This document shows, piece by piece, positions 51,607-64,000 of a DNA stretch of 64,000 nt. Position 1 is the stretch's first letter. Each line of letters begins with the position of its first letter. The position numbers were made by a program, and so were the translations under genes. Below the pieces are notes generated by a model, which was not told where the DNA came from, made no database searches, and saw only the letters and a program-made list of their open reading frames with translations. The DNA is from Verrucomicrobiota bacterium (GTDB taxonomy: Bacteria > Verrucomicrobiota > Verrucomicrobiia > Limisphaerales > VHDF01), in contig VHDF01000018.1 in assembly GCA_016871495.1 (NCBI GenBank), positions 1-64,000 of the forward strand. Reading direction: 5' to 3'.

Positions 51607-53950
51607 TTATTGCTTGGGCAGGAAACTGCGATAGTACCGGTTGGTGGCGACCCCGGTGATGTTGAGGGCGAAGCTAAAGTTCGGCAGTCCGGCACTGTTG
51701 GTCACGAGCGAAACCCAATCGATCAGGTTGGTCGAACTCTGAATCACGTGCCGTTCTCCCGCGTTGCCCTTGATCCGAAGCTGCAGCCGATTGGTGGCTT
51801 CCCGGGAAAGGGCGAGTGAGTGCACCCCGAAAGGCGGAAACACCGCGAATCCCTGCACATTCGCGCCCGTGGCGGTCGTGAAACTCCCGCCCACGTAATA
51901 CGTGCCCCCCTCCACGAGCGCCACGGAAAAAACCTGGTTGTTGAACGCCGGAGCCCAGCCAAAATCCGACGCGTTCGTCAGACTTAAAGCCGCCAACCGG
52001 TTCCGAGCCTGCCCATTCACCGAGCCAAACTGACCGCCCACGAACAAGTATCCGTTCATGATGCGAAGCATTTCCACCGTGCGGTCCGTCGGCGTGACCC
52101 AATCGGTGGCAAGACCCGTGCGGACGTCCAAAGCCGCCAGATTGGTCCGGAACTGAGACCCGATGCTCGCAAACGCGCCCCCCACGAAAATCCGACTTCC
52201 ATCCAGAGCCAAAGCGCGCACCTCTCCCTGCGCGAACGGATTCCACGGCGTCACCGCGCCGGTGGCCAAATTCACCGCGCCCAAATTGAAACGCTGACGA
52301 GCGCTGAGCGAATTGAAATTCCCCCCCACGTAGAGCACTTGCTCGGTCGCGGTCAGCGCAAACACCGTTCCGTTGGGGTTGGGCGCAAGATCTCCCACCG
52401 CGCCCGTGTTCAAATCGAGGGACGCCAAATTGGTTCGAGTCACCCCACCCACCGATTGAAAGGTTCCCCCCACAAAGAGGCGGCCCGCCCCGACATGGAC
52501 CACTTCCACCACCCCATTCGGATTCGGCGACCAAGGCAAAACTTCCCCCGTGTCCGCATGAACCGCGACCAGATTCGTCCGAGCCAATCCTCCTACCTTG
52601 GTGAACTCTCCGCCAACGTAAAGCCGCTGCTCGGAATAAACCGTGGAAAACACGCTCCCAACGGTTTCGTTGGTCCCTTCCAACCTCAAGCTTGGATTCC
52701 AGGGAAGAATTTGCCCTGACAATTCATCCAGCACGGCCAAACCGCTTCTGCGTTCTCCCCCGATCGAGTTGAAGCTGCCCCCGACATAAATCGCATTCGT
52801 GGTCGCGGCCATCGCATTCAAAGCGCCTCCTATCTCGGAAGCCCAATCGGCCGAAAGATTGTCGTTGGACAACTCAATCGCCGCCGCGTTGGAACGCGGG
52901 TTGCCGCCGAAACGTGTGAATTGCCCCCCCCACAAATAACCGGCTCCCATTCGACGCCATCGTCCGCACTTCTCCGTCCACTCCAAAATCAAACCCATTC
53001 TGTCCCGTCGCCGGATCCAAAGAGGCAAATCCACGCCGCGGCTGGGAGGCGATGTTGGTGAATGTGCCTCCCACATAAATCCGCGATCCAGCCCGCAAAA
53101 CTGCATGGACCGGACCATCCGGGTTCGGCGCCCAAGCAGACACGGTGTCGGTAAAAGGATCCACTTTCGCCAAATTCAGCCGGGCCACGCCGGAAATAGC
53201 ACTGAAGCTCCCCCCGACGATCAATTCGTCGTTCGCGTAGGCCATCGCATTGACACGGCCGACCGGACGCGGATCCCAATCCGTCACCGCGCCGGTCACG
53301 GCATCAATCGCCGCCAAGTTCGTCCTGGATTCACTCGAAATCTGGTTGAACGCACCGCCGATAAACAGGCGCGATCCAAAACTGGCCAAAGCATGCACCG
53401 GACCGGTCGGATTCGGCGCCAAGGCCAGGACGGCACCCGAAGCCGGGTTGAGCGCCGCCAGATTCGTCCGCGGCGCCGCCACGGCTCCGACGCCAAAACG
53501 GGTGAATGCGCCACCCGCGTAAAGAACATTACCCGCAAGCAACAGGGTGTGGACGGGTCCGTTGACGTTGGGATTAAACGAAGTCGTGACCGTTCGATCC
53601 GAGCGAATATGAGCCAGATTGTTCCGCGCCGTTCCTCCCACGGCGGTGAACGAGCCCCCGACAAACCATCCGCCCGCGCCATCGCTCACCGCCGCGTTGA
53701 GGGTTCCCGTCACGGTCGGCATCTCCAAGTCCGGAGTCCCCATCTCAGCGCTAAGCGTGGTGCCTCCGGCTGCCCCAAAACCAATGGCGGAGAAACTTCC
53801 CCCCAAATAAATCTTCCCGTTGGTGGCAATCACTGAAAACACGGGGTCATCCGCCGTCCAAAAGTCACGGCGAGGACTATTGGCGGGCTGGGCAAACATG
53901 CCGGTGGAAACCCATAAGAACGCCAGCAACGCAATCAGGATCTTTTTCAT
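51607..53950 (-). pseudogene. Delta-60 repeat secreted protein, apparent frameshift in a G8 tract
   Basis: From ATG 53950 (signal peptide LIALLAFLWVSTGMFAQ) the frame encodes delta-60-type repeats such as GRVNAMAYANDELIVGGSFS and NPDGPVHAVLRAGSRIYVGG up to SRLFVGG. It then shifts at the eight-C run 52924-52931 (G8 in the gene). The other frame continues QFTRFGGNPRSNAAAIELS and further repeats to the end at 51607. Removing one G gives an uninterrupted 780-residue protein with about a dozen beta-propeller-like repeats and a C-terminal beta domain (SSTNLIDWVS). Such proteins are large exported surface proteins of unknown function. The tract may be a sequencing error or a phase-variable switch. 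Confidence 0.85.
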
Positions 53951-54237
53951 GTCATGTGTTCTGAGATCGAATCTTGCCGCATCACGACACGGGTCCATTC
54001 CCGCGTAGCCAATCGGCCCAATGGCACTCCCCGAGCAAGCAACGATGGTTCTCATAACTCGCAACGGAGATTCAAGCCAGTCCAATGTCGGCAGTTTTCA
54101 CAAACGTAAGACTCGCCCCTACAAGCAGTTCATCGGCCAAATCCGAATCTCCCTTAGAATAATGTGGGAAGTGATTTGCCCCCAGCGGGATAGAGGCTGG
54201 AGCTTTGCGTCAAATCGCCGCGCTTCCCAATCCGGTT

Positions 54238-56004
54238 CTAAAGCAAGACCACTTTTCGATCGAGATCGGGTGAACCGGAACCCGTGTCACAATCTAAGGC
54301 CTTGGGCTCAAACTCTTTGCACCACCCTTTGATCTCCGTATCGTTGAAGATCTTACCCATCACCCGACGCAGAAGGCCCTTCAAACTTGGATGCTCCAAA
54401 CTCGCCAGGGAACGGACTGCCTCTTCTTTGTAGGTTTCCAGCAGGGTGCGGACGCGTTCTTCAACTTTGAGTTCGGCGTAAATCGATTCCATGCCCTTGC
54501 AACTTCCCGAGGAGAGATCCCTGCGCCACAGTTTCTCCAGTCGGTCGCGGTGCTCCGCCTGGGAAGCTCGTTCGTAAGCACTCGCTAGGACGACGCTGGG
54601 CCGCATACCCGCCAAATCATTCGACTCGGAAGATCCACCCAAGTCGTCGAGATCGTCTCGAATCTGATAAGCGATGCCCAGGGCCTCCGAGTAAGCATGG
54701 AGCGAGTCCCGGACTTCGTCATGCTGTTGCACCCCGGCACAGAGCGAGCCGAGGCGCAACGCGACCTCGAACGCGGGAGCGGTCTTCCGCCGGAAAATAT
54801 CCAGCACCTGGAGGGTCGTCATCGGCTTCGGCTCCCTGGCCCAAATCAGCTCCGCTCCTTGCCCACGGCAAAGTTCGCGCTGCCCCTCGGTGGCGGCAAG
54901 CACCATCGCCGAGGTTTGCCGGGTGCTGAACTTGCTCGAAGCCAACAAACGATAACCCTCCCCGATCAACAGATCCCCCACATTCAAAGCCACCGCAACT
55001 CCATGCTCCTCGTGGAGCGTTTTCTCCCCATACCGGCTCGCGTCCCCATCCTCGATGTCATCGTGAATCAACGACGCTTTGTGAAAACACTCCACCGCGA
55101 CCGCGACTTTCTTCAAATCCTCCGGCAAGGGCCCGCCCGGGTCATCCCGCAGCGCCTGGAATGCGGACGCGGTCAAGAACGGACGCCACCGCTTGCCCGC
55201 CCGCATAAGCCAGTCCTTGGCAATCTGCTCCGTGCGGGATTCGCTCGGACCGAGGATCAAATCCAGTGAGGCCGGGGAAAACCAAAAATCAATCTCCTCG
55301 CGCAACGCCGCCAAATCCATCCGCCGGGTCTTGTCCTCGCTGGTCAAATGAATGTAGTCCCAGACCCAATCCAAATCGACGTTGGTGTCGATGCAGTCGT
55401 CTTGAAGCAACGGCACCGCCACGCCCGGAACCGCCGCGGCTTCCATGTAGGGAAACGCCCGTTCCAACACGCTGAGACAACTGACACCCACAATGGCCTC
55501 AATCTTGCCGGTCTGAATCAAGGACATGACGATGGCAGAGCCCTCCGCTACCAGAACAGCATATCCCAAACGTTCGGCTTCGACCTGCAAGTCCTGAATC
55601 GAGCACAACCCGCATTGCTTGCACAACAGCCCAAACTCATCAAACGGCGCCGGGCATTTGCTCTCCACGCGCAGGCATTTCGGAAGCAGCAGCAGCCTCC
55701 GCTCGTAAGGAACACTGGCCAGTTGCTCGCGCCAAATCTCGTTGTTGAGAAGCACCCCCACATAATCTCGGTAAATCGGATCGCAACCCAGCGCGGCAAT
55801 CATCCGGTCCGCATGCACCTTCAATTGCGCTAGTGGCAACGGCGGAACAGGGTTGAATTCCGCGACGTAATGACGCACCGCATGAAGGACACGGGTCCTC
55901 TCTTCGGGCGTTTGCGGTATGTTCTTCTTGGGCGGTCTGGCCTTCTGTTGAGGCACCGGGCGCGGCAAGGCGAGAGGCGCGAAAGAAATGGAACTCGTGT
56001 GCAT
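54238..56004 (-). CDS. DUF116-polyprenyl synthetase fusion protein
   Basis: This 588-residue cytoplasmic protein starts at ATG 56004 (TTG 56019 is in frame). The N-terminal half resembles DUF116: cysteines in LLPKCLRVESKCPAPFD and GLLCKQCGLC (near residues 110, 117, 128, 131, 134), then VSCLSVLERAFPYM and LLQDDCIDTN. The C-terminal half is a trans-isoprenyl diphosphate synthase with GKRWRP, the first Asp-rich motif DDIED (315-319), and the second DDLDD (450-454). Chain length cannot be deduced. The conserved cysteines suggest a metal or Fe-S site that could couple redox state to prenyl chain synthesis. It is the last gene of the cluster. Confidence 0.9.
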   Translation of the reverse strand: MHTSSISFAPLALPRPVPQQKARPPKKNIPQTPEERTRVLHAVRHYVAEFNPVPPLPLAQLKVHADRMIAALGCDPIYRDYVGVLLNNEIWREQLASVPYERRLLLLPKCLRVESKCPAPFDEFGLLCKQCGLCSIQDLQVEAERLGYAVLVAEGSAIVMSLIQTGKIEAIVGVSCLSVLERAFPYMEAAAVPGVAVPLLQDDCIDTNVDLDWVWDYIHLTSEDKTRRMDLAALREEIDFWFSPASLDLILGPSESRTEQIAKDWLMRAGKRWRPFLTASAFQALRDDPGGPLPEDLKKVAVAVECFHKASLIHDDIEDGDASRYGEKTLHEEHGVAVALNVGDLLIGEGYRLLASSKFSTRQTSAMVLAATEGQRELCRGQGAELIWAREPKPMTTLQVLDIFRRKTAPAFEVALRLGSLCAGVQQHDEVRDSLHAYSEALGIAYQIRDDLDDLGGSSESNDLAGMRPSVVLASAYERASQAEHRDRLEKLWRRDLSSGSCKGMESIYAELKVEERVRTLLETYKEEAVRSLASLEHPSLKGLLRRVMGKIFNDTEIKGWCKEFEPKALDCDTGSGSPDLDRKVVLL

Positions 56005-56019
56005 AACCTGTGCGAGCAA

Positions 56020-57360
56020 TCAACCGCTGACGCCAGCCTTCTCAGGCGAACCGGCCGCCGAGGCCGTCCTGGGAGAGCTGGGCTGGGACAAAGTTATCCC
56101 TTGGTTTCCAGCCGGGTCGAGCATCGATTTCAAGGCTTTGAGTCGAGTCCCCGGCTCCGGTGGCGTCCGGTCGTAAGCCCGGAAATCATTGAACCAATAC
56201 TTCTTGGCAAGGCGATACATCCAATGACGTTCAGGAATCTCCTCCCCCGGCAGCCATTGACTGAAACGGGGCTTCATGGCGGCCAGTTCAACCATCGCAG
56301 TGCCGCGCAAGGTCGTGTCCCGGGCTTGATGCCGGCGCGCCAGGTCCGCCACCAAATCCGGACGTTCCAGGACGACGCATCCCCGAGTCGCCCCCGCCGT
56401 GGTTTCCCGGAAGTCCTTCAAGAAGGCACTGCTGCGAATGGCCTCAAAGACACCCCGGTCATCGCGAATGTTCTCCGTCGCAAACTGCAGAATCGGACAA
56501 GGCTCGATCCAGCCTCCCGGACCCACATGGTGACTCACCCCCGTCGCCATGGGACACAATGCCTTGCCCACATGATCGTAATACGCGTCCAGCATGCCGA
56601 TGGGCATGCGGCAACGCATTTCGACGATGAACCGCCGAACCCGAACCAGCTGGTCAGGTCGCAATGCAAGTTCGGCACTCATCTTGGGCCCAACCGGACG
56701 GTAAGTGTGGTACCAGACGTAGTGAACACCTCGTCGAATCAACTCGCGCAGCCACGCTTCGGAGAGCAAATCATCGATATTCGACTGGCAAACACTGGTG
56801 GCAACACCGGTGAGGAGTTTCTCGCGCAAGCACGCGTCGAGCCCCCGCAAGGTTCGATTCAAAACGTCCGCCTTGCCCCGGCGCTCGTCGCTCGCCACTT
56901 CCAATCCCTCGATGCTGACCAACGGCGTCGCGTTGCCTATCTGACGCAACTTTCGCGCAACCTTGTCGGTAATGAATTGGCCGTTGGTAAAAACCTGAAA
57001 ATACGCGTCCGGATGGCTGGCCAGTAACTCAAGCAAATCCGGATGCATGAAGGGCTCCCCGCCCAGGATCCCGAAGAACGAATTCCCGTGCGCCTTCGCG
57101 TCGCGGATGGTGCGATTGAGCAGACCCAGGTCAATTTGAGTCCGCTCCGCCTCAACATCCACCCAGCACCCCTGGCACCTCAGATTGCAGGAGTTCAAGA
57201 TGGAGAGATACAGGAACGGGGGAAAATACTCTCCCCGCCGGGCGCGCCGCTTGAAACGTTCCACACTGAGCATGCCCTTCCAACCGAAGTTCCAGGCGAA
57301 CTTCGCCAGCAACCTCGGATCCACGGTCCGCATAATCCGCCATGTCAACGCGGGCAACAT
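56020..57360 (-). CDS. Radical SAM protein with SPASM-like C-terminus
   Basis: This 446-residue protein has the cluster motif SCNLRCQGC (C58, C62, C65 from ATG 57360), followed by GILGGEPFMHPDLLELLA and VFTNGQFITDKVARKL, which are SAM- and cluster-binding strands. The C-terminal half has further cysteines in KALCPMATG, WIEPCPILQF and TRGCVVLE that could hold an auxiliary cluster. A TTG at 57366 is also in frame. The plan is similar to HpnH-like and SPASM enzymes. The stop lies 15 bases before the next start (56004), so it is co-transcribed with the prenyl synthetase gene. The substrate is unknown. Confidence 0.9.
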   Translation of the reverse strand: MLPALTWRIMRTVDPRLLAKFAWNFGWKGMLSVERFKRRARRGEYFPPFLYLSILNSCNLRCQGCWVDVEAERTQIDLGLLNRTIRDAKAHGNSFFGILGGEPFMHPDLLELLASHPDAYFQVFTNGQFITDKVARKLRQIGNATPLVSIEGLEVASDERRGKADVLNRTLRGLDACLREKLLTGVATSVCQSNIDDLLSEAWLRELIRRGVHYVWYHTYRPVGPKMSAELALRPDQLVRVRRFIVEMRCRMPIGMLDAYYDHVGKALCPMATGVSHHVGPGGWIEPCPILQFATENIRDDRGVFEAIRSSAFLKDFRETTAGATRGCVVLERPDLVADLARRHQARDTTLRGTAMVELAAMKPRFSQWLPGEEIPERHWMYRLAKKYWFNDFRAYDRTPPEPGTRLKALKSMLDPAGNQGITLSQPSSPRTASAAGSPEKAGVSG

Positions 57361-57480
57361 ACTCAACTTCGGATTCGGTCACCGAGACCGGCCACGCCTC
57401 GACCAGCGTGCCTGTGGCTTCAAGACCGAAACGGTCCCCATTCGGTTTCGAAAAATCATGGGCAGGACCCGCGGCATGTC

Positions 57481-58335
57481 TCAAGCCTCGGGCATTTGCC
57501 CCAAGTGACGAGCGGCGCGCTGCCTCGCCTCCTCCGCCTTGCGCGCAATTTCCTCGGGCGACGGCAGGCTCATCAGCACTTCCCGAGGAACGTCCGCCGT
57601 CAACTGGGCCAGCTTGGTCAAGCACTTTTGCCGCTCGGCCAGCGCCTTGTCGGAGTCGCGTTCCTTGGAAAACCGGCTCTTGGCCCGCTCGCTCCTCGTG
57701 CGGAGCATGTCATACACGTCGCCCCCCAGCAGAGCGGAAATATCAATCTTCATCTTTTCCCGGTTCAAATCGGCGTCGCTCACCTGGTCGCCATTGATCG
57801 GTCCCGACTTGTATTTCGGGAACATGATCGCCGCCTCTGGGCAGACGCGGGAACACGCGGGACAGTTGGTCTTGCATTGATCCAGGTTCTGCGCCTGGAT
57901 TTTTTGCTGCTCGTCCACACCGTAAACCCCGAAGAGACAAAAACTCAAACACTGCATGCAATTGGTGCAGCGATCATAGTCAATCACCGGAAACCAAGGC
58001 TTCCAAAGCCCATGCTCCACTGCCTTGGCCTCTCCCCGACGAGCCTCCACCTTTTCCGCCACCGCCTCCGCGGGCATCCCGCTCACATCCAGAAAACGTG
58101 CCCGATCGGCGCGGTCCATCGGTTCGGGCACCACCGCCCCTTCAAACTGGCCCAGCCACACCGTCTCTCCTCGATCATGGGGAGACACTCGCCCGCCCGG
58201 CTGGGGCCGTGTCAGGGCATATCCCTTCCCCAACAACACGCTCATGGTCTCGAAAAGCGTTTCCCCCGGCCAATGGGACGCCGTTTCGCCTTCGAAAAAG
58301 ACAATTCGCAACGTCGGTTCCGTCAGGGTGCTCAT
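57481..58335 (-). CDS. Two-[4Fe-4S] ferredoxin-like protein
   Basis: This 284-residue protein has about 115 residues before two cluster motifs: CTNCMQCLSFC (C-x2-C-x2-C-x3-C, residues 123-133) and CKTNCPACSRVC (C-x3-C-x2-C-x3-C, 154-165). The C-terminal third is a charged helical region (KAEEARQRAARHLGQMPEA). It is not a simple 8-Fe ferredoxin but a larger cluster-binding protein of the Fd superfamily, probably passing electrons between partners in this operon. Its start overlaps the stop of the upstream HdrA-N-like gene by four bases (58332-58335). There is a 120-base gap before the radical SAM gene. Confidence 0.88.
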   Translation of the reverse strand: MSTLTEPTLRIVFFEGETASHWPGETLFETMSVLLGKGYALTRPQPGGRVSPHDRGETVWLGQFEGAVVPEPMDRADRARFLDVSGMPAEAVAEKVEARRGEAKAVEHGLWKPWFPVIDYDRCTNCMQCLSFCLFGVYGVDEQQKIQAQNLDQCKTNCPACSRVCPEAAIMFPKYKSGPINGDQVSDADLNREKMKIDISALLGGDVYDMLRTRSERAKSRFSKERDSDKALAERQKCLTKLAQLTADVPREVLMSLPSPEEIARKAEEARQRAARHLGQMPEA

Positions 58336-58718
58336 GAGGGCGAAGATTCCGTCGTTTCTTTCCCGGACGGGAGATTCGGCCGCAATTCCGGCCGGCCCAA
58401 AGCCTCGACGATTTCCTGGGCGGGTTGCACACGCATGTTCAAGACTTCAACACGGTCCGAGGTCAGCGGCGCGCCCGCGGAAGCAAAAAGCCACTTCACG
58501 GCCCTGGGAAAACAGGCGGCAATCCGGACACCCCCGCCATTCGGATCCGCCAGTCTTTGCAGGGCGCCATCCTTGCGCGCCGACATTTCACACAAGTCCG
58601 CCACCGCCTCAAACGCCGCCCCGCCGGAACAAAGGTGCCTCAACACGGCTTCCTTCGTCTCCCGCGGAACCACCTGGGCGTAGTTGCAATGACAGTAGAG
58701 AATGCGCGGCGCACTCAT
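58332..58718 (-). CDS. Small HdrA-N-like cysteine protein
   Basis: This 128-residue protein begins SAPRILYCHCNYAQVVPRET and contains C9, C11, C30, C43 and C69. The CHC start, the ADLCEMSARKD segment and RIAACFPRAVKWLF resemble the N-terminal domain of heterodisulfide reductase HdrA (CHCGxN...C...AACSPR), which binds an Fe-S cluster. Here the domain stands alone without the FAD domain. It overlaps the ferredoxin gene by four bases, which implies a direct partnership. The assignment is from pattern recall and is tentative. It could be a cluster-binding adaptor or electron entry point. Confidence 0.6.
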   Translation of the reverse strand: MSAPRILYCHCNYAQVVPRETKEAVLRHLCSGGAAFEAVADLCEMSARKDGALQRLADPNGGGVRIAACFPRAVKWLFASAGAPLTSDRVEVLNMRVQPAQEIVEALGRPELRPNLPSGKETTESSPS

Positions 58719-58807
58719 GGCGAGTTTCTTCTTAAGACAAGATGGCCACCGGGATCCATGTGCGTCTCAAAGCTCGTGCTGGAATTCATATCGGGCCGGG
58801 TTCTCCC

Positions 58808-60001
58808 CTAATCCTCCAACCCCGCCATCCGATGGGTCGGCGTCGGACGGCCCGGACGGAATCGCTCCAGATGTTCCACCCTCATCACGAGGCCCGCCTC
58901 GCTCGCCTCAACCACCCGTGCTCGCACCGTGCTCTGAAGCGCCTCGGCCAAAAGCTCGGGATCTCCCTCGGCCCGCAAATTGAAGGTCAGCTGGCCCGCC
59001 CTGATGGACTCGGGCAATGCCTGGCCTAACTCCGGCACGAAATCGTTTCGCACCACGTTCACAATGCCGAGATCGCCCAACCCGTCACGCGATTCGAGCG
59101 TGATCTTGCAATGAGCGATCTCCAGCCCTCGAGAGGCCAACCATTGCCTCACCCCCTCCGCCAGCTCCCTCAACAGTTGGTTGCCGTCGAAAACACCTGA
59201 CGCCCCTTGACTCTCCACACTCAACGTCGCATTCAGCCACCCCAGCAACGCCTCCCCCTCCGCGTAAACATCGTAATCCACAGGCATAGCCTTCCACCGT
59301 CCGGCTTCTCCCCGCCGCAGGTGATCGAACCATGCGTCCAGTCCCGAACCTTCCCTCGCCGAGACCTGGAAAACGGTGGATTTGGGATGCCTTTCCTGCA
59401 GCGCGTCGCTTAAACGCCGCAATCGCTCGGGAGACAACAGCTCCCGCTTGTTGATCACAATGAGTTCCGCTTCCTCCAACTGCTTGCGGTAAATGTAGAG
59501 AACTTTCTCCGAAAAACTGGAACCGGATTCCAGTCCCAACACGCGTTCAGCCCGGATGGGGTCCACCACGACACTCAAGGGGGCCACCACGAAACGGTCC
59601 CCATAGATCCGCCGCAACGGATAGCTCACCGTCGCCACCAAATCCGTGCAACTGCCGACCGGTTCGGCGAGAATGAACTCGGGCCGAGTCTCCGCCGTCA
59701 ATTGCCTGGCCGCGTCCGTCAGAGAATCGAATCGGCAACAGAAACATCCGCCGGCAATTTCCGCGGTTGAAAAACCCCGCTGCCGGAACCACGCCGTGTC
59801 GACGAGCTCGCTCGCCTGATCATTCGTGATCAAACCTGTCCTTCGCCCTTCGTCACGCAACCGCTCCCCCAACCGCATCATGCAGGTCGTCTTCCCCGCC
59901 CCGAGAAAACCGCCGATCATTACGTAGCGAGCCATCGAATCGCCCAAGTCGGGGACAGCCGGCGCTCGCGTCGTCGCAGGTGCGGAGGAGGAATCGTTCA
60001 T
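58808..60001 (-). CDS. CobW/G3E family GTPase
   Basis: This 397-residue protein has Walker A GGFLGAGKTTC (lysine 37), the metal-chelation motif AGGCFCCRFD (C-x-C-C type), the Walker B-like ILAEPVGSCTD and VINKREL in place of NKxD. The C-terminal domain is COG0523-like. Such GTPases insert or carry metal ions (zinc, cobalt, nickel, iron) for enzymes. Start ATG 60001 overlaps the stop of the GcvH-like gene (ATGA). In this operon it may metallate or activate one of the Fe-S or lipoyl partners. Its target is not known. Confidence 0.92.
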   Translation of the reverse strand: MNDSSSAPATTRAPAVPDLGDSMARYVMIGGFLGAGKTTCMMRLGERLRDEGRRTGLITNDQASELVDTAWFRQRGFSTAEIAGGCFCCRFDSLTDAARQLTAETRPEFILAEPVGSCTDLVATVSYPLRRIYGDRFVVAPLSVVVDPIRAERVLGLESGSSFSEKVLYIYRKQLEEAELIVINKRELLSPERLRRLSDALQERHPKSTVFQVSAREGSGLDAWFDHLRRGEAGRWKAMPVDYDVYAEGEALLGWLNATLSVESQGASGVFDGNQLLRELAEGVRQWLASRGLEIAHCKITLESRDGLGDLGIVNVVRNDFVPELGQALPESIRAGQLTFNLRAEGDPELLAEALQSTVRARVVEASEAGLVMRVEHLERFRPGRPTPTHRMAGLED

Positions 60002-60474
60002 GCGCTGGGATCGGAGTGCTTTTGCTGGGCAAGGATGCGGTCGATCGTGCTGTCGAGCAAGGCCCGATATGCCATCACGTCCAGACTCTTCTCTCCAGGC
60101 TCGCCCTGCACTTCGTACAACCACCCTTCCGTGTAGTTGCTTTCGTGAACCAGAGCGGACTTCTTCGCCAAGGCGGGGTTCATTCCCAGAAAAAGTCCGG
60201 CCGCCGGACAATACAAATCCGAAATCGCCTTGAATCCCTCGACCCATCCCACGATCTTCCCGGGCTGCACGGGCTCGCCTGCCCCGATTTCCAACCCGAC
60301 ATCCACGGTTTCACCCAGCATCCGCACCGCAAACTTGGTCAATCCAACCCTGACCACGCCCTCCGGCATCCTGGACATCCACGCGTGCGCCGGCGTGTAA
60401 AGGTAATCGACAGGCAAATGCGTGACGAACGTCGACCGCTTGTAAAAAACGGTTTTGAGTGGCGGCCTGGACAT
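59998..60474 (-). CDS. GcvH-like lipoyl carrier protein
   Basis: This 158-residue protein resembles the glycine cleavage H protein: YTPAHAWM, VRVGLTKFAVRMLGETVDV and VGWVEGFKAISDLYCPAAG, where lysine 82 is the expected lipoylation site. An N-terminal extension (VFYKRSTFVTHLPVDYL) and a long C-terminus differ from standard GcvH. No gcvT, gcvP or other glycine-cleavage gene is in the window. It overlaps the stop of the glycosyltransferase gene by one base and the start of the CobW gene by four. Family members outside glycine cleavage include lipoyl proteins of the sulfur-oxidising sHdr system, which makes the HdrA-like neighbour notable. Confidence 0.88.
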   Translation of the reverse strand: MSRPPLKTVFYKRSTFVTHLPVDYLYTPAHAWMSRMPEGVVRVGLTKFAVRMLGETVDVGLEIGAGEPVQPGKIVGWVEGFKAISDLYCPAAGLFLGMNPALAKKSALVHESNYTEGWLYEVQGEPGEKSLDVMAYRALLDSTIDRILAQQKHSDPSA

Positions 60475-63014
60475 CAGCCCTGCCCTCCGGCTTGGGATTT
60501 CTTGTTCTGCGCCACCAGGCTCTCCTCCTCGGCCACCTTGTCGAGGAAGACCGCGAAAATCCGTTGCAATCGCTGGCGTTGCTGGTTGAGCCACCAAACC
60601 AGAAACGGCAGTCCCGCCAGAACCAGCCAAACCCACGGCCAGCGACGCGCCAACACACCGGCCACCACCAAACACCCGCCCGCCGCCACGGCGACGATCA
60701 ACCTCGCCGTCAACGTCGGCACCACCTGCAATCGACATCGCAAGACTCGCCTGTTGCCGTGGCGCGATTCCATCACGGTGGTCAGCCGCAACCGGCCCAA
60801 CCGATCGCCCTGGGCTTCCAGGTCATAATCACTCCACCCGGTGTCCGTGCGAATCCGCCAACCCTCCTGCTCAAGCCTCGACGTCAGCCTCCCAAGAAAA
60901 CCCACCCGGTCAAAATCATTTGCGGAATGATAGCAAACTTCGTCCAACCCCGGCTCCGCCTGCCCGCGCGCCATGCTCTCAAAACTGTCCACCGCGCTCG
61001 GAGGCAGTCTTTGCTGAAGGTCGAGCCGGCCGCGATATCGCGCCCACCCTCGCACGATCGGCTGCAACAGGTAGAGGAGAGCAATGAGTGGACGGGACCA
61101 TAATCGCCTTCGGGAACGAGGGACAGCCGCCTGCGCCCCGGCCACCACACACAACACCCCCACCATCACCAGATTGGTCACCGCCACCGGCCACAGGAAC
61201 GGCAACGGAAATGAAACCACGACGAGCGGCAAGCTCACCAGCGCGTGATACTCGATGCTGGTGAACATCAGGAACAAACCGGACGGCCCAGGCCTGTAAA
61301 TAGCCTGGAACATCCCCGTTCCAAACAGTCCATGATAAATCATGGCCGGTCGAAACAGCAGGCTCAGCTTCGCCGGCGAGTAAATCGTGCCCCGCCACAA
61401 ATGACCCCCGATGGCATTGAAGTATTCCGGATGCCGATGAACGAGCAAGGCCTCCGCCTCTCCATATCCCCGCTGCTGCCGCAAATACTCCCCCACCGTG
61501 GAACGCCGATAATGCCAGACGAAACCGCCGGGACTGAACCCGATGCGGAATCCACGCTGCTGCAAACGCCAGCACAAATCCACGTCATCCCCCGCTTTCC
61601 GAAACACCGGGTCGAAACCTCCCACCTCCAGCAAAGCCCAACGGTAAAAAACCATGTTGCAGCCGGGGATATGCTCCGCCTCCCGATCGGTCAGCATCAC
61701 GTGCGCGGGCCCGCCCGGCGAAACCATGACCGCCGCGGCCACCCACGAATCATCGGGCGGCAGGAAATTATGCCCACCCATGCCGGTAAAATCCCCCCGC
61801 AACAAATCCCCCACCACAAAATGCAGCCAATCCTCATCCGCCCGGCAATCCGCGTCCGTAAAGGCGACAAGCTCACCCTGGGCCGCGGCGATCCCCGTGT
61901 TCCGCGCCGCCGATAATCCGCGATTTTCAGCGTGAGGAACATAACGCACGTCCGGAAACTCTGTGGCAATCCGCGCGGTCTCGTCACGCGATCCGTCATC
62001 GACCAGGATCACCTCGTAATCCGGGTAATGCAGCTTCCGCAGCGACGCCAGACACGCCCTCAGCGTCGCCGCCCCTTGATAACTGGCCACCACGACGGAC
62101 ACCTTCGGGCTGCGCGGCAAAGGAAACCTGGGCGCCAGGCCGAACGACCTCGTCACCGCGCCAAAGGCCGGCTTCAGCTCGCGATTCGACCGGGTCAGCC
62201 CAAAGGCCCAGTCCGCCACTTCCACCCCATCCTTGTGCCATTCATCCGTGAAACTGAAAACAATCACGCCCGCCGTGCCCGCGCGGAACGCGGCCTCCAC
62301 CTGCCAACTCAGGATCTCCGCCTGGGCATCCTCCCCCTCCCGAATGCTGTCGATCCCGATTTCCCCAAGCAACAGAGGACGCGCGTCCGCCAGCATCTGC
62401 AACCGGCCGACATAAGCCTCCCAGGACCGCTGGTGATGGAGATAAAGATTGAAGCAGCGAAAATCCGCGCCGCCCGGCGAAAGAAACTCGGTCGTGGGGA
62501 AATTGCCGAACGTGCAGAGTGCTTCCGGATCCACGCGCTTGATCTCGTCGATCAATTCGTCGATGAACCGCTCCACGGCGCGCTGCCCGCTCCACCGCAC
62601 GATGTCCGCCGGGATTTCGTTCACCACGCTGAAGGCAAACACCGCGTGATGGCGGGCACACTGTTCCGCCGCCCGCCGGGCAGCCTCGCGCGCCTCCCGT
62701 TGCAACCTCGGGTCATCGAGGAAACACGCCTCCTTGTTCCAGGGAATGTCGATGAGCAGCCGAAACCCTTGCGTCTCCGCCAAATCGAGGAACCACCGCG
62801 GCGGCACATGATAAACCCGCAGCACATTCGCTCCCAGCCGCCGCAACCCTTCGAAATCGCGCCGCGCCTCCTCCGGCTCGGGAAAAGGCTGGCCGGATCC
62901 ATTCGGGCGAAAGGGCCCGTAGGTGACCCCCTTGACGAAGAACTTCGCGGGCCCCACGCGGAACCCCTTCCCATCCACCGTCACACGGGGAGGCCGGGCA
63001 GGACCGAAGCTCAT
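60474..63014 (-). CDS. Glycoside hydrolase-like / GT2 glycosyltransferase fusion, membrane-bound
   Basis: This 846-residue protein begins with a TIM-barrel region of the GH2/GH5 type (residues about 15-290): GVTYGPFRPNG, LLIDIPWNKEACF, VVNEIPADIV with a candidate acid/base E133 and LLLGEIGIDS with a candidate nucleophile E218. Residues about 303-560 are a GT2 domain (VSVVVASYQGAATLRACLAS, VILVDDGSRDETA, FTDADCRADEDW, GDDVDLCWRLQQRGF). Hydrophobic helices near 590-630, 640-655 and 765-810 follow. It opens the cluster and overlaps the GcvH-like gene. The enzyme could build or remodel a lipid-linked or surface glycan. The substrate is unknown. Confidence 0.9.
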   Translation of the reverse strand: MSFGPARPPRVTVDGKGFRVGPAKFFVKGVTYGPFRPNGSGQPFPEPEEARRDFEGLRRLGANVLRVYHVPPRWFLDLAETQGFRLLIDIPWNKEACFLDDPRLQREAREAARRAAEQCARHHAVFAFSVVNEIPADIVRWSGQRAVERFIDELIDEIKRVDPEALCTFGNFPTTEFLSPGGADFRCFNLYLHHQRSWEAYVGRLQMLADARPLLLGEIGIDSIREGEDAQAEILSWQVEAAFRAGTAGVIVFSFTDEWHKDGVEVADWAFGLTRSNRELKPAFGAVTRSFGLAPRFPLPRSPKVSVVVASYQGAATLRACLASLRKLHYPDYEVILVDDGSRDETARIATEFPDVRYVPHAENRGLSAARNTGIAAAQGELVAFTDADCRADEDWLHFVVGDLLRGDFTGMGGHNFLPPDDSWVAAAVMVSPGGPAHVMLTDREAEHIPGCNMVFYRWALLEVGGFDPVFRKAGDDVDLCWRLQQRGFRIGFSPGGFVWHYRRSTVGEYLRQQRGYGEAEALLVHRHPEYFNAIGGHLWRGTIYSPAKLSLLFRPAMIYHGLFGTGMFQAIYRPGPSGLFLMFTSIEYHALVSLPLVVVSFPLPFLWPVAVTNLVMVGVLCVVAGAQAAVPRSRRRLWSRPLIALLYLLQPIVRGWARYRGRLDLQQRLPPSAVDSFESMARGQAEPGLDEVCYHSANDFDRVGFLGRLTSRLEQEGWRIRTDTGWSDYDLEAQGDRLGRLRLTTVMESRHGNRRVLRCRLQVVPTLTARLIVAVAAGGCLVVAGVLARRWPWVWLVLAGLPFLVWWLNQQRQRLQRIFAVFLDKVAEEESLVAQNKKSQAGGQG

Positions 63015-63067: not shown

Positions 63068-64000
63068 TCAAACGTTGAACTTGAACAGCAGCACGTCGCC
63101 GTCACGAACGACGTATTCCTTGCCTTCCATGCGATAAAGCCCCTTCTCGCGCGCCGCCGCCACCGAGCCGCACTGGACCAAGTCCTCGTAAGCTACCGTC
63201 TCGGCTTTGATGAAGCCGCGCTCGAAATCGCTATGAATCACCCCCGCCGCCTTGGGCGCCGTGTCCCCGGCGTGAATGGTCCACGCGCGCACTTCTTTCT
63301 CGCCCGCGGTGAAATAGGTCCGCAGTCCCAACAGATGATACGTGGCGCGAATCAACGCGCCCACCCCCGACTCCGCCACTCCCAGCTCCCGCAGGAAAGC
63401 CTGCGCTTCCTCCTCGGAAAGATCGACCAGGTCGCTCTCGATCTGGGCGCTGATCACGACCGTTTCGCAACTGTGATGCGCGGCCGCGTAAGCTTTGACT
63501 TTCTGGACATGCGCCATGCCATCAGCCTGAGCCAGCTCCGATTCTTTGACATTCGCCGCAAAGATCGTCGGCTTGTCGGTCAACAGGTAAAACCCGCGCG
63601 CGATCGCCTTCTCCTCCGGTGCAAGGTCGAGCGTGATCGCCGGCTTGCCCGCGTCCAGATGCGGCTCGACCTTCTTCAACACCGCCTCCTCCGCCAGAGC
63701 GATTTTGTCCCCCCGTTTCGCGTCCTTCGCCCCTTTCTCAATCCGCTTCTTGACCGCGTCCAGATCGGCCATGACCAACTCGGTGGTGATCGTCTCGATG
63801 TCCCGCACGGGATCCACCGAACCCGCCACGTGATGGATATCGCCGTCCTCGAAGCAACGCACCACCTGCACGATGGCATCGACTTCGCGAATGTGGCTGA
63901 GGAATTTGTTGCCCAAGCCCTCGCCCTGGGAAGCCCCGCGGACCAGCCCGGCAATATCCACGAACTCGACCGCCGCCGGGATGAGGGTGGAGGTCTTGGC
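63068..64000 (-). CDS. ychF: Redox-regulated ATPase YchF, N-terminus outside window
   Basis: The frame is open to base 64000, so the N-terminal G domain start is missing; about 310 residues are visible. The sequence starts [20 protein letters not shown], with the Walker B-like [20 protein letters not shown] after it, then [20 protein letters not shown], typical of YchF/OLA1. The C-terminal TGS-like domain has [40 protein letters not shown] and [13 protein letters not shown], the conserved end. YchF binds ATP rather than GTP, associates with ribosomes and is linked to stress responses. It lies 53 bases downstream of the start of the glycosyltransferase gene, transcribed in the same direction. 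Confidence 0.96.

Follow-up and report, generated by a model that had tools for sequence, protein, structure and literature searches.

A gene cluster around a DUF116-polyprenyl synthetase fusion in Verrucomicrobiota, a candidate pathway to a cyclised polyprenoid

Genes of the locus

Seven reading frames are open at 54238-63014 of the window (the whole stretch of 64,000 nucleotides that was analysed), all on the minus strand and placed where a sequence-only reading had put them, which confirms the one-strand layout. From upstream to downstream they encode a GT2 glycosyltransferase (GT) with a weak GH-like N-terminus (60474-63014), a GcvH-like lipoyl protein of 158 aa (59998-60474), a CobW-family GTPase of 397 aa (58808-60001), an HdrA-N-like cysteine protein of 128 aa, here called Small (58332-58718), a dicluster [4Fe-4S] ferredoxin (57481-58335), a radical SAM enzyme, rSAM (56020-57366), and a fusion of DUF116 with a polyprenyl synthetase (54238-56019). 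The lipoyl protein and CobW start at ATG 60474 and ATG 60001, respectively, corrected from the longest-frame starts. The rSAM is 448 aa long from a TTG, and the fusion protein is 593 aa from a TTG or 588 aa from ATG 56004. The genes had been described as mostly overlapping at their starts and stops; this holds at four of the six junctions (GT/GcvH, GcvH/CobW, Small/ferredoxin and, given the TTG start, rSAM/DUF116), but gaps of 89 and 114 bases separate CobW from Small and the ferredoxin from rSAM. Upstream of the cluster, at 63068-64000, lies the gene of the widely conserved ATPase YchF (TIGR00092, 379 bits). Directly downstream of the DUF116-synthetase gene, two overlapping minus-strand frames (52874-54085 and 51607-53118) each contain propeller-like repeats of the GGSFxxIGG type, and together (51607-54085) they look like a single gene broken by a frameshift. 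Rfam and tRNA scans of the whole window gave no matches.

Most of the family assignments made without database searches are borne out by Pfam: PF00535 for the GT (E 5e-32), GCV_H (PF01597) for the lipoyl protein (4e-18), PF02492 for CobW (3e-22), PF04055 for rSAM (2e-11), and both DUF116 (PF01976, 5e-36) and polyprenyl synthetase (PF00348, 4e-40) for the fusion, along with Fer4 matches in the ferredoxin. Two assignments fare less well: the N-terminus of the GT protein scores 22.1 bits against GH72, under the cut-off of 25.9, and Small has no Pfam or NCBIfam match at E values up to 0.1. The GcvH-like protein reaches 66.9 bits against the GcvH equivalog model TIGR00527, whose cut-off is 115.85. 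Its lipoyl lysine is found in 32 of 33 rows, the remaining row not covering the site, and the GGCFCC motif of CobW in 30 of 30; some rows in both cases are copies of the window.

The catalytic and cysteine residues of the fusion protein are well conserved among 21 homologues. Seven cysteines are invariant in DUF116 (C115, C122, C133, C136, C139, C181 and C209). In the synthetase half the first DDxxD is invariant, as is D456 of the second Asp-rich motif, whose other Asp positions are nearly so. Ala and Ser precede the first DDxxD in every one of the 21 rows. Aromatic residues at this place limit prenyl chain length; with Ala and Ser there instead, the product may plausibly exceed C20. The predicted structure of DUF116 (pLDDT 84.5) is Rossmann-like over 102-228 and has no clear relative. 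Makarova and colleagues, in the part of PMC5898192 that concerns DUF116, propose an electron-transfer role and a flavodoxin-like fold for it, and the model is in keeping with the latter. The model reaches Z 6.4 with the HdrA N-terminal domain, tied with dehydroquinases, and such fold ranks hint that the two might be homologous; a profile comparison of DUF116 with Small gave a probability of 4.1, and PDB sequence searches on the proposed homology returned nothing significant.

In rSAM the CxxxCxxC motif (C60, C64, C67) and three further cysteines (C271, C290, C330) are invariant in 21 homologues. The enzyme falls under the cut-off of all 25 NCBIfam families listed, out of 45 matched. Its profile aligns with the peptide maturase SkfB up to the end of a cysteine-containing region, which we take to be the auxiliary-cluster domain of SkfB. 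The resemblance is to enzymes for peptides, porphyrins and nucleosides rather than for lipids, which counts against a lipid substrate. The idea that rSAM is a selenoprotein, raised by an in-frame TGA in most rSAM matches, was rejected. Where it can be placed, the TGA lies at the natural C-terminus, the same place at which the rSAM frames of other distant genomes end, so that it represents read-through of a true stop rather than selenocysteine.

Small carries the motifs CxC, DLC and AC.PRAV, and its structure is predicted with confidence (pLDDT 93.3). In Foldseek, HdrA chains come second and third (E 0.015 and 0.024), and the first rank in VIA is HdrA 8rvy_A (Z 7.4, 119 aligned, rmsd 4.7), with a designed Rossmann protein at Z 7.0. 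Since none of the 734 Foldseek matches reached E 0.001 and Z stays below 8, the likeness of the modelled protein to the HdrA N-terminal Fe-S-type fold is suggestive only. Small is fused to the ferredoxin in distant genomes, and a profile of Small and its fused relatives matches HdrA chains solely via the ferredoxin half. In a 14-row alignment that includes the fused relatives, the N-terminal domain of the ferredoxin of architecture A (described below) aligns with Small but is without its cysteines. No Pfam match to a flavin domain, such as the central one of HdrA, was found in Small or the ferredoxin.

Conservation of the cluster and its cyclase genes

A contig scan for relatives of the DUF116-synthetase found at least 580 among at least 589 stretches, and the best 80 were analysed by tblastn. 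Being the nearest relatives, these 80 form an uneven sample, and many end at contig edges. By label nearly all are Verrucomicrobiota, mostly metagenome-assembled, and they include Chthoniobacter flavus Ellin428; two are labelled Proteobacteria (L009, L012) and two just 'bacterium' (L024, L035). Plasmid records gave no match to the fusion at 1e-30. The sequence-only reading had proposed a check for joint conservation and order of the genes in Verrucomicrobiota, and six of the seven do recur, together with two cyclase-family genes, SQC300 and SQC600, which that reading had missed and which in relatives often lie downstream of the DUF116-synthetase. Within the best 80 of at least 580 loci, rSAM is present in 44, SQC300 in 39, the ferredoxin in 35, Small in 30, GcvH in 27, CobW in 26, NifS in 17 and SQC600 in 14. 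SQC300 is thus not seen within reach in 41 loci and SQC600 in 66. When only the 44 well-flanked loci (>6.5 kb upstream and >3 kb downstream) are considered, the counts are rSAM 26, SQC300 23, ferredoxin 22, Small 22, GcvH 21, CobW 18, NifS 14 and SQC600 10; in the other 18 of these loci rSAM is not nearby. The order GcvH-CobW-Small-ferredoxin-rSAM-DUF116 is kept in 18 of the best 80, ferredoxin-rSAM-DUF116 in 26, DUF116-SQC300 in 39, and the eight-gene order from GcvH through SQC600 in 7. Such order and co-occurrence are more than chance would give.

The GT gene behaves differently. It is found in none of the best 80 loci (of at least 580), the well-flanked 44 included, nor in L082-L097 or L179-L198, and among the other fetched distant loci the only copy is the window's own. 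The GT was therefore rejected as a pathway member and is regarded as a local neighbour outside the conserved pathway. Of the seven genes first taken as one unit, six are conserved together, and the suggestion that the neighbouring membrane GT glycosylates the product is not upheld.

The loci fall into two main architectures. In architecture A (L188), NifS lies opposite GcvH-CobW-Small-ferredoxin-rSAM-DUF116-SQC300-SQC600; a variant (L189, G204) has SQC600 beyond NifS. Architecture B (L109, L110, L112, L115, L180-L183) consists of a Small-ferredoxin fusion, rSAM, the DUF116-synthetase, SQC300 and SQC600, without GcvH and CobW; in L180-L183 the fused query matched over both halves. Most distant genomes have neither GcvH nor CobW next to the cluster. 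The exceptions seen are intermediates between A and B: G012 and G065 have the fusion together with GcvH and CobW, and G066 keeps GcvH only. The lipoyl protein and CobW (the latter mostly in architecture A) are accessory to the pathway, whereas the synthetase, rSAM, ferredoxin and Small are core. In the locus of Chthoniobacter flavus Ellin428 (L027) the synthetase is accompanied by SQC300 and SQC600, and rSAM is absent from the 21.7-kb piece. In three genomes of one family a DnaJ-type CXXCXGXG protein adjoins SQC300 (L104:5489-6241, L105:7320-8075 and L106:4381-5127; the domain scan covered L104).

SQC600, of about 600 aa, belongs to the class II terpene cyclase family and has its catalytic DXDD motif. 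Two copies score 142.6 and 118.1 bits against the SQHop_cyclase C domain (Pfam cut-off 26.1) and 82.4 and 54.2 bits against the N domain (cut-off 26.2). The PDADDT of the copy from the window's own genome aligns with PDVDDT of squalene-hopene cyclase (SHC), and PDADD is found in 29 of 33 SQC600 reading-frame rows. Of the four exceptions, three are fragments of one disrupted copy (L168), and the fourth is truncated where its contig ends (L041). SQC300, of about 295 aa, is a cyclase-repeat protein that matches the prenyltransferase alpha-alpha toroid domain and has 17 invariant columns across 17 sequences; it is likely to be a partner of SQC600. In the window's genome both cyclases are on other contigs, SQC600 at G000:C40:2158-3786 and SQC300 just as a 113-aa 3' fragment at the edge of contig C142.

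In a phylum sample of 115 genomes at least 90% complete, the DUF116-synthetase (E 1e-60) is present in 17, the carriers, and SQC600 (E 1e-20) is present in exactly these 17. The rSAM (E 1e-60) is found in 16 of the carriers (all but G112) and in none of the other 98 genomes, Small (E 1e-4) in nine genomes, all carriers, and SQC300 (E 1e-10) in 12, namely 11 carriers and the non-carrier G086. In an order sample of 96 genomes, of which 92 have no more than 5% contamination, the synthetase (E 1e-60) occurs in 52 and SQC600 in 53: both are present in 49, neither in 40 and a single one in seven. At the thresholds used, the synthetase is present without SQC600 in G117, G163 and G200, and SQC600 without the synthetase in G116, G123, G136 and G178. 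The SQC600-like proteins of the last three (L194 in G123, L196 in G136, L195 in G178) are 39-44% identical to the query and possibly represent a different cyclase subfamily. Fisher tests on co-occurrence give 1e-20 and 8e-19, values that ignore the kinship of the genomes. The two genes are also jointly present or absent inside families f39, f41, f46, f61 and f67, with exceptions in f43, f50 and f69, which suggests repeated joint changes. Linkage is not always kept. In G066 the synthetase is on contig C17, rSAM, GcvH and SQC600 are on C4, and SQC300, Small and the ferredoxin are on C9, CobW not being seen; in G101 three different contigs carry the synthetase, the ferredoxin-rSAM pair and SQC600, and SQC300 was not found. 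Retention without linkage is good evidence for shared function, and the cluster genes and the cyclases very probably form one pathway.

A candidate pathway and its alternatives

Judged from protein families, catalytic motifs, gene order and co-occurrence, the pathway would make a cyclised polyprenoid, to which we give a probability of about 0.6, and this product is probably a membrane lipid. The synthetase half would join IPP to an allylic diphosphate, giving a polyprenyl diphosphate, and SQC600, with SQC300 as its likely partner, would protonate and cyclise the polyprenyl chain. The rSAM, with one auxiliary cluster, could modify the isoprenoid at a C-H or C-C bond, drawing on electrons that the HdrA-N-like/ferredoxin protein would supply, while DUF116 may be a domain attached to the synthetase for Fe-S-based electron transfer or sensing. 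In the window's form of the cluster, the lipoylated GcvH-like protein and a CobW chaperone would be accessory redox or metal-supply parts; NifS, near the cluster in 17 of the best 80 relatives (of at least 580), is noted with the metal-supply idea. Each of these reactions is our inference, as are substrate and product and which of the cyclase and radical steps comes first. The earlier proposal of an electron-driven, Fe-S-dependent modification of an isoprenoid keeps its centre, in that the genes, which travel together across Verrucomicrobiota, are best read as an isoprenoid pathway that includes a radical SAM step and has Fe-S carriers of its own; its lipoyl protein has become accessory, and its glycosylation step has lost support.

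A function for the product is hinted at by a redox module. A NosR/NapH-like membrane Fe-S protein (query from a distant operon, 1e-20) is found in 16 of the 115 genomes, 15 of them carriers and the other G059, the association being partly unlinked. It is accompanied by a NapG-like protein, an NHL-type propeller and PQQ-like propellers, and some genomes add NuoEF-like and GltD/NuoG-like proteins, as named by reading of their sequences. The NosR/NapG module lies beside the core operon or directly adjoins it in L100, L102, L109 and L112-L115, as do its propellers in L110; the propellers match 'empty quinoprotein' models weakly. With the module in 15 of 17 carriers a redox lipid is possible, namely a cyclised isoprenoid that, analogous to a quinone, would be the electron carrier or anchor for a membrane NosR/NapG-like complex with PQQ-like propellers. 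We consider this specific role unlikely. At 1e-20 a NosR-like match is lacking in two carriers, G066 and the window's own genome (G000), and in G059 a NosR-like protein occurs where the synthetase is missing. The product as a replacement for quinones was rejected for want of support: UbiA-family genes are present in all 17 carriers, so that a quinone substitute is not called for. A redox lipid is speculative and rather unlikely, and it is distinctly unlikely that a new class of polycyclic isoprenoid lipids, made from a polyprenyl diphosphate through a class II cyclase and an rSAM of its own and redox-active with the NosR/NapG-like complex, acts as a membrane electron carrier in the distant lineages. 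As side observations, no DUF116-synthetase reaches the threshold in G059, whose locus L161 carries a module of NosR/NapG-like and PQQ-propeller proteins, and the 21 of 115 genomes without a UbiA-family match include no carrier, a weak and unexplained trend.

Alternatively, the synthetase might make side chains of quinones or undecaprenyl, with the Fe-S, lipoyl and rSAM genes serving some other process, such as Hdr-like sulfur or lipoate metabolism, that merely shares the operon. GcvH-like proteins do work with Hdr-like complexes in sulfur oxidation, as the available part of PMC6067878 describes, and NifS in 17 of the best 80 loci would fit such a process. However, the seven proteins include no HdrB/HdrC-type domain, most distant genomes retain rSAM, the ferredoxin and the synthetase but have no GcvH or CobW at the cluster, and the distribution of the synthetase over the 115 genomes is exactly that of the class II cyclase, all of which makes this explanation improbable. 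A cofactor of the mycofactocin type, with rSAM maturing a peptide and an MftF-like GT glycosylating it, is barely credible: the alignment of rSAM with SkfB and scores of 177.7 bits (GT to MftF) and 37.8 bits (rSAM to MftC) point that way, but the scores are far under the cut-offs of 280 and 265, and the GT is not conserved with the cluster.

If the cyclised polyprenoid is indeed the product, about half of the sampled order (52 of 96 genomes, by the synthetase) and distant lineages of the phylum would make an uncharacterised cyclic isoprenoid, by a route needing, in general, neither squalene synthase nor SHC. DUF116 would gain its first pathway, and the lipid-acting radical SAM enzymes one more family. 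The product might also account for unassigned sedimentary polycyclic terpenoids. With this gene set known, the question can be put to the test in a named strain, Chthoniobacter flavus Ellin428.

Comparison with known systems

Hopanoid synthesis (SHC/HpnF with HpnH) shares with the candidate pathway a DXDD class II cyclase and a radical SAM enzyme able to modify a cyclised isoprenoid. The proteins themselves are different. Two copies of SQC600 score 107.1 and 92.8 bits against TIGR01507, whose cut-off is 431.1, and are not SHC, and rSAM, at 30.8 bits against 225.05 for TIGR03470, is not HpnH. Squalene/phytoene synthase (PF00494, 1e-5) is matched in 30 of the 115 genomes and in five of the 17 carriers (G000, G066, G007, G020 and G053), leaving 12 carriers without a match at that threshold. 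A cyclase C domain at SHC strength (E <1e-130) belongs to a separate gene, found in seven of the 115 genomes, among which G000 is the sole carrier. These distributions indicate that the pathway is not hopanoid synthesis, and the substrate of SQC600 would, in general, not be squalene. In the window's genome hopanoid-type genes and SQC600 coexist: L177 (G000:C46:8000-27000) has an SHC-strength match (PF13243, E 2e-138), and two squalene/phytoene synthase matches are on other contigs.

Sesquarterpene synthesis, in which a polyprenyl synthase is followed by a class II cyclase, has in common with the proposed route a long linear prenyl chain cyclised without squalene; to our knowledge it has no radical SAM, DUF116 or lipoyl parts.

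The cluster had been put forward as an undescribed system, and the open literature, with subscription papers and preprints largely outside its coverage, yielded no account of the pathway; nor do the available parts of PMC8692599 describe it. The DUF116-synthetase fusion alone is in print. PMC5898192, the one paper found to mention DUF116 (COG1852), reports in the relevant section its fusion to a polyprenyl synthetase in Pirellula staleyi (Psta_0175), the same architecture as that of the window; a radical SAM gene, a cyclase or an isoprenoid pathway does not come up there. The other published likeness is to the sHdr-LbpA system, as far as the available part of PMC6067878 covers it, where lipoate-binding GcvH-like proteins (LbpA) work with the Hdr-like complexes. 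It shares with the window a GcvH-like lipoyl protein adjoining an HdrA-N-like/ferredoxin protein. Unlike that system, the cluster encodes no HdrB/HdrC-type or flavin domain in its seven proteins and is centred on a synthetase and a cyclase.
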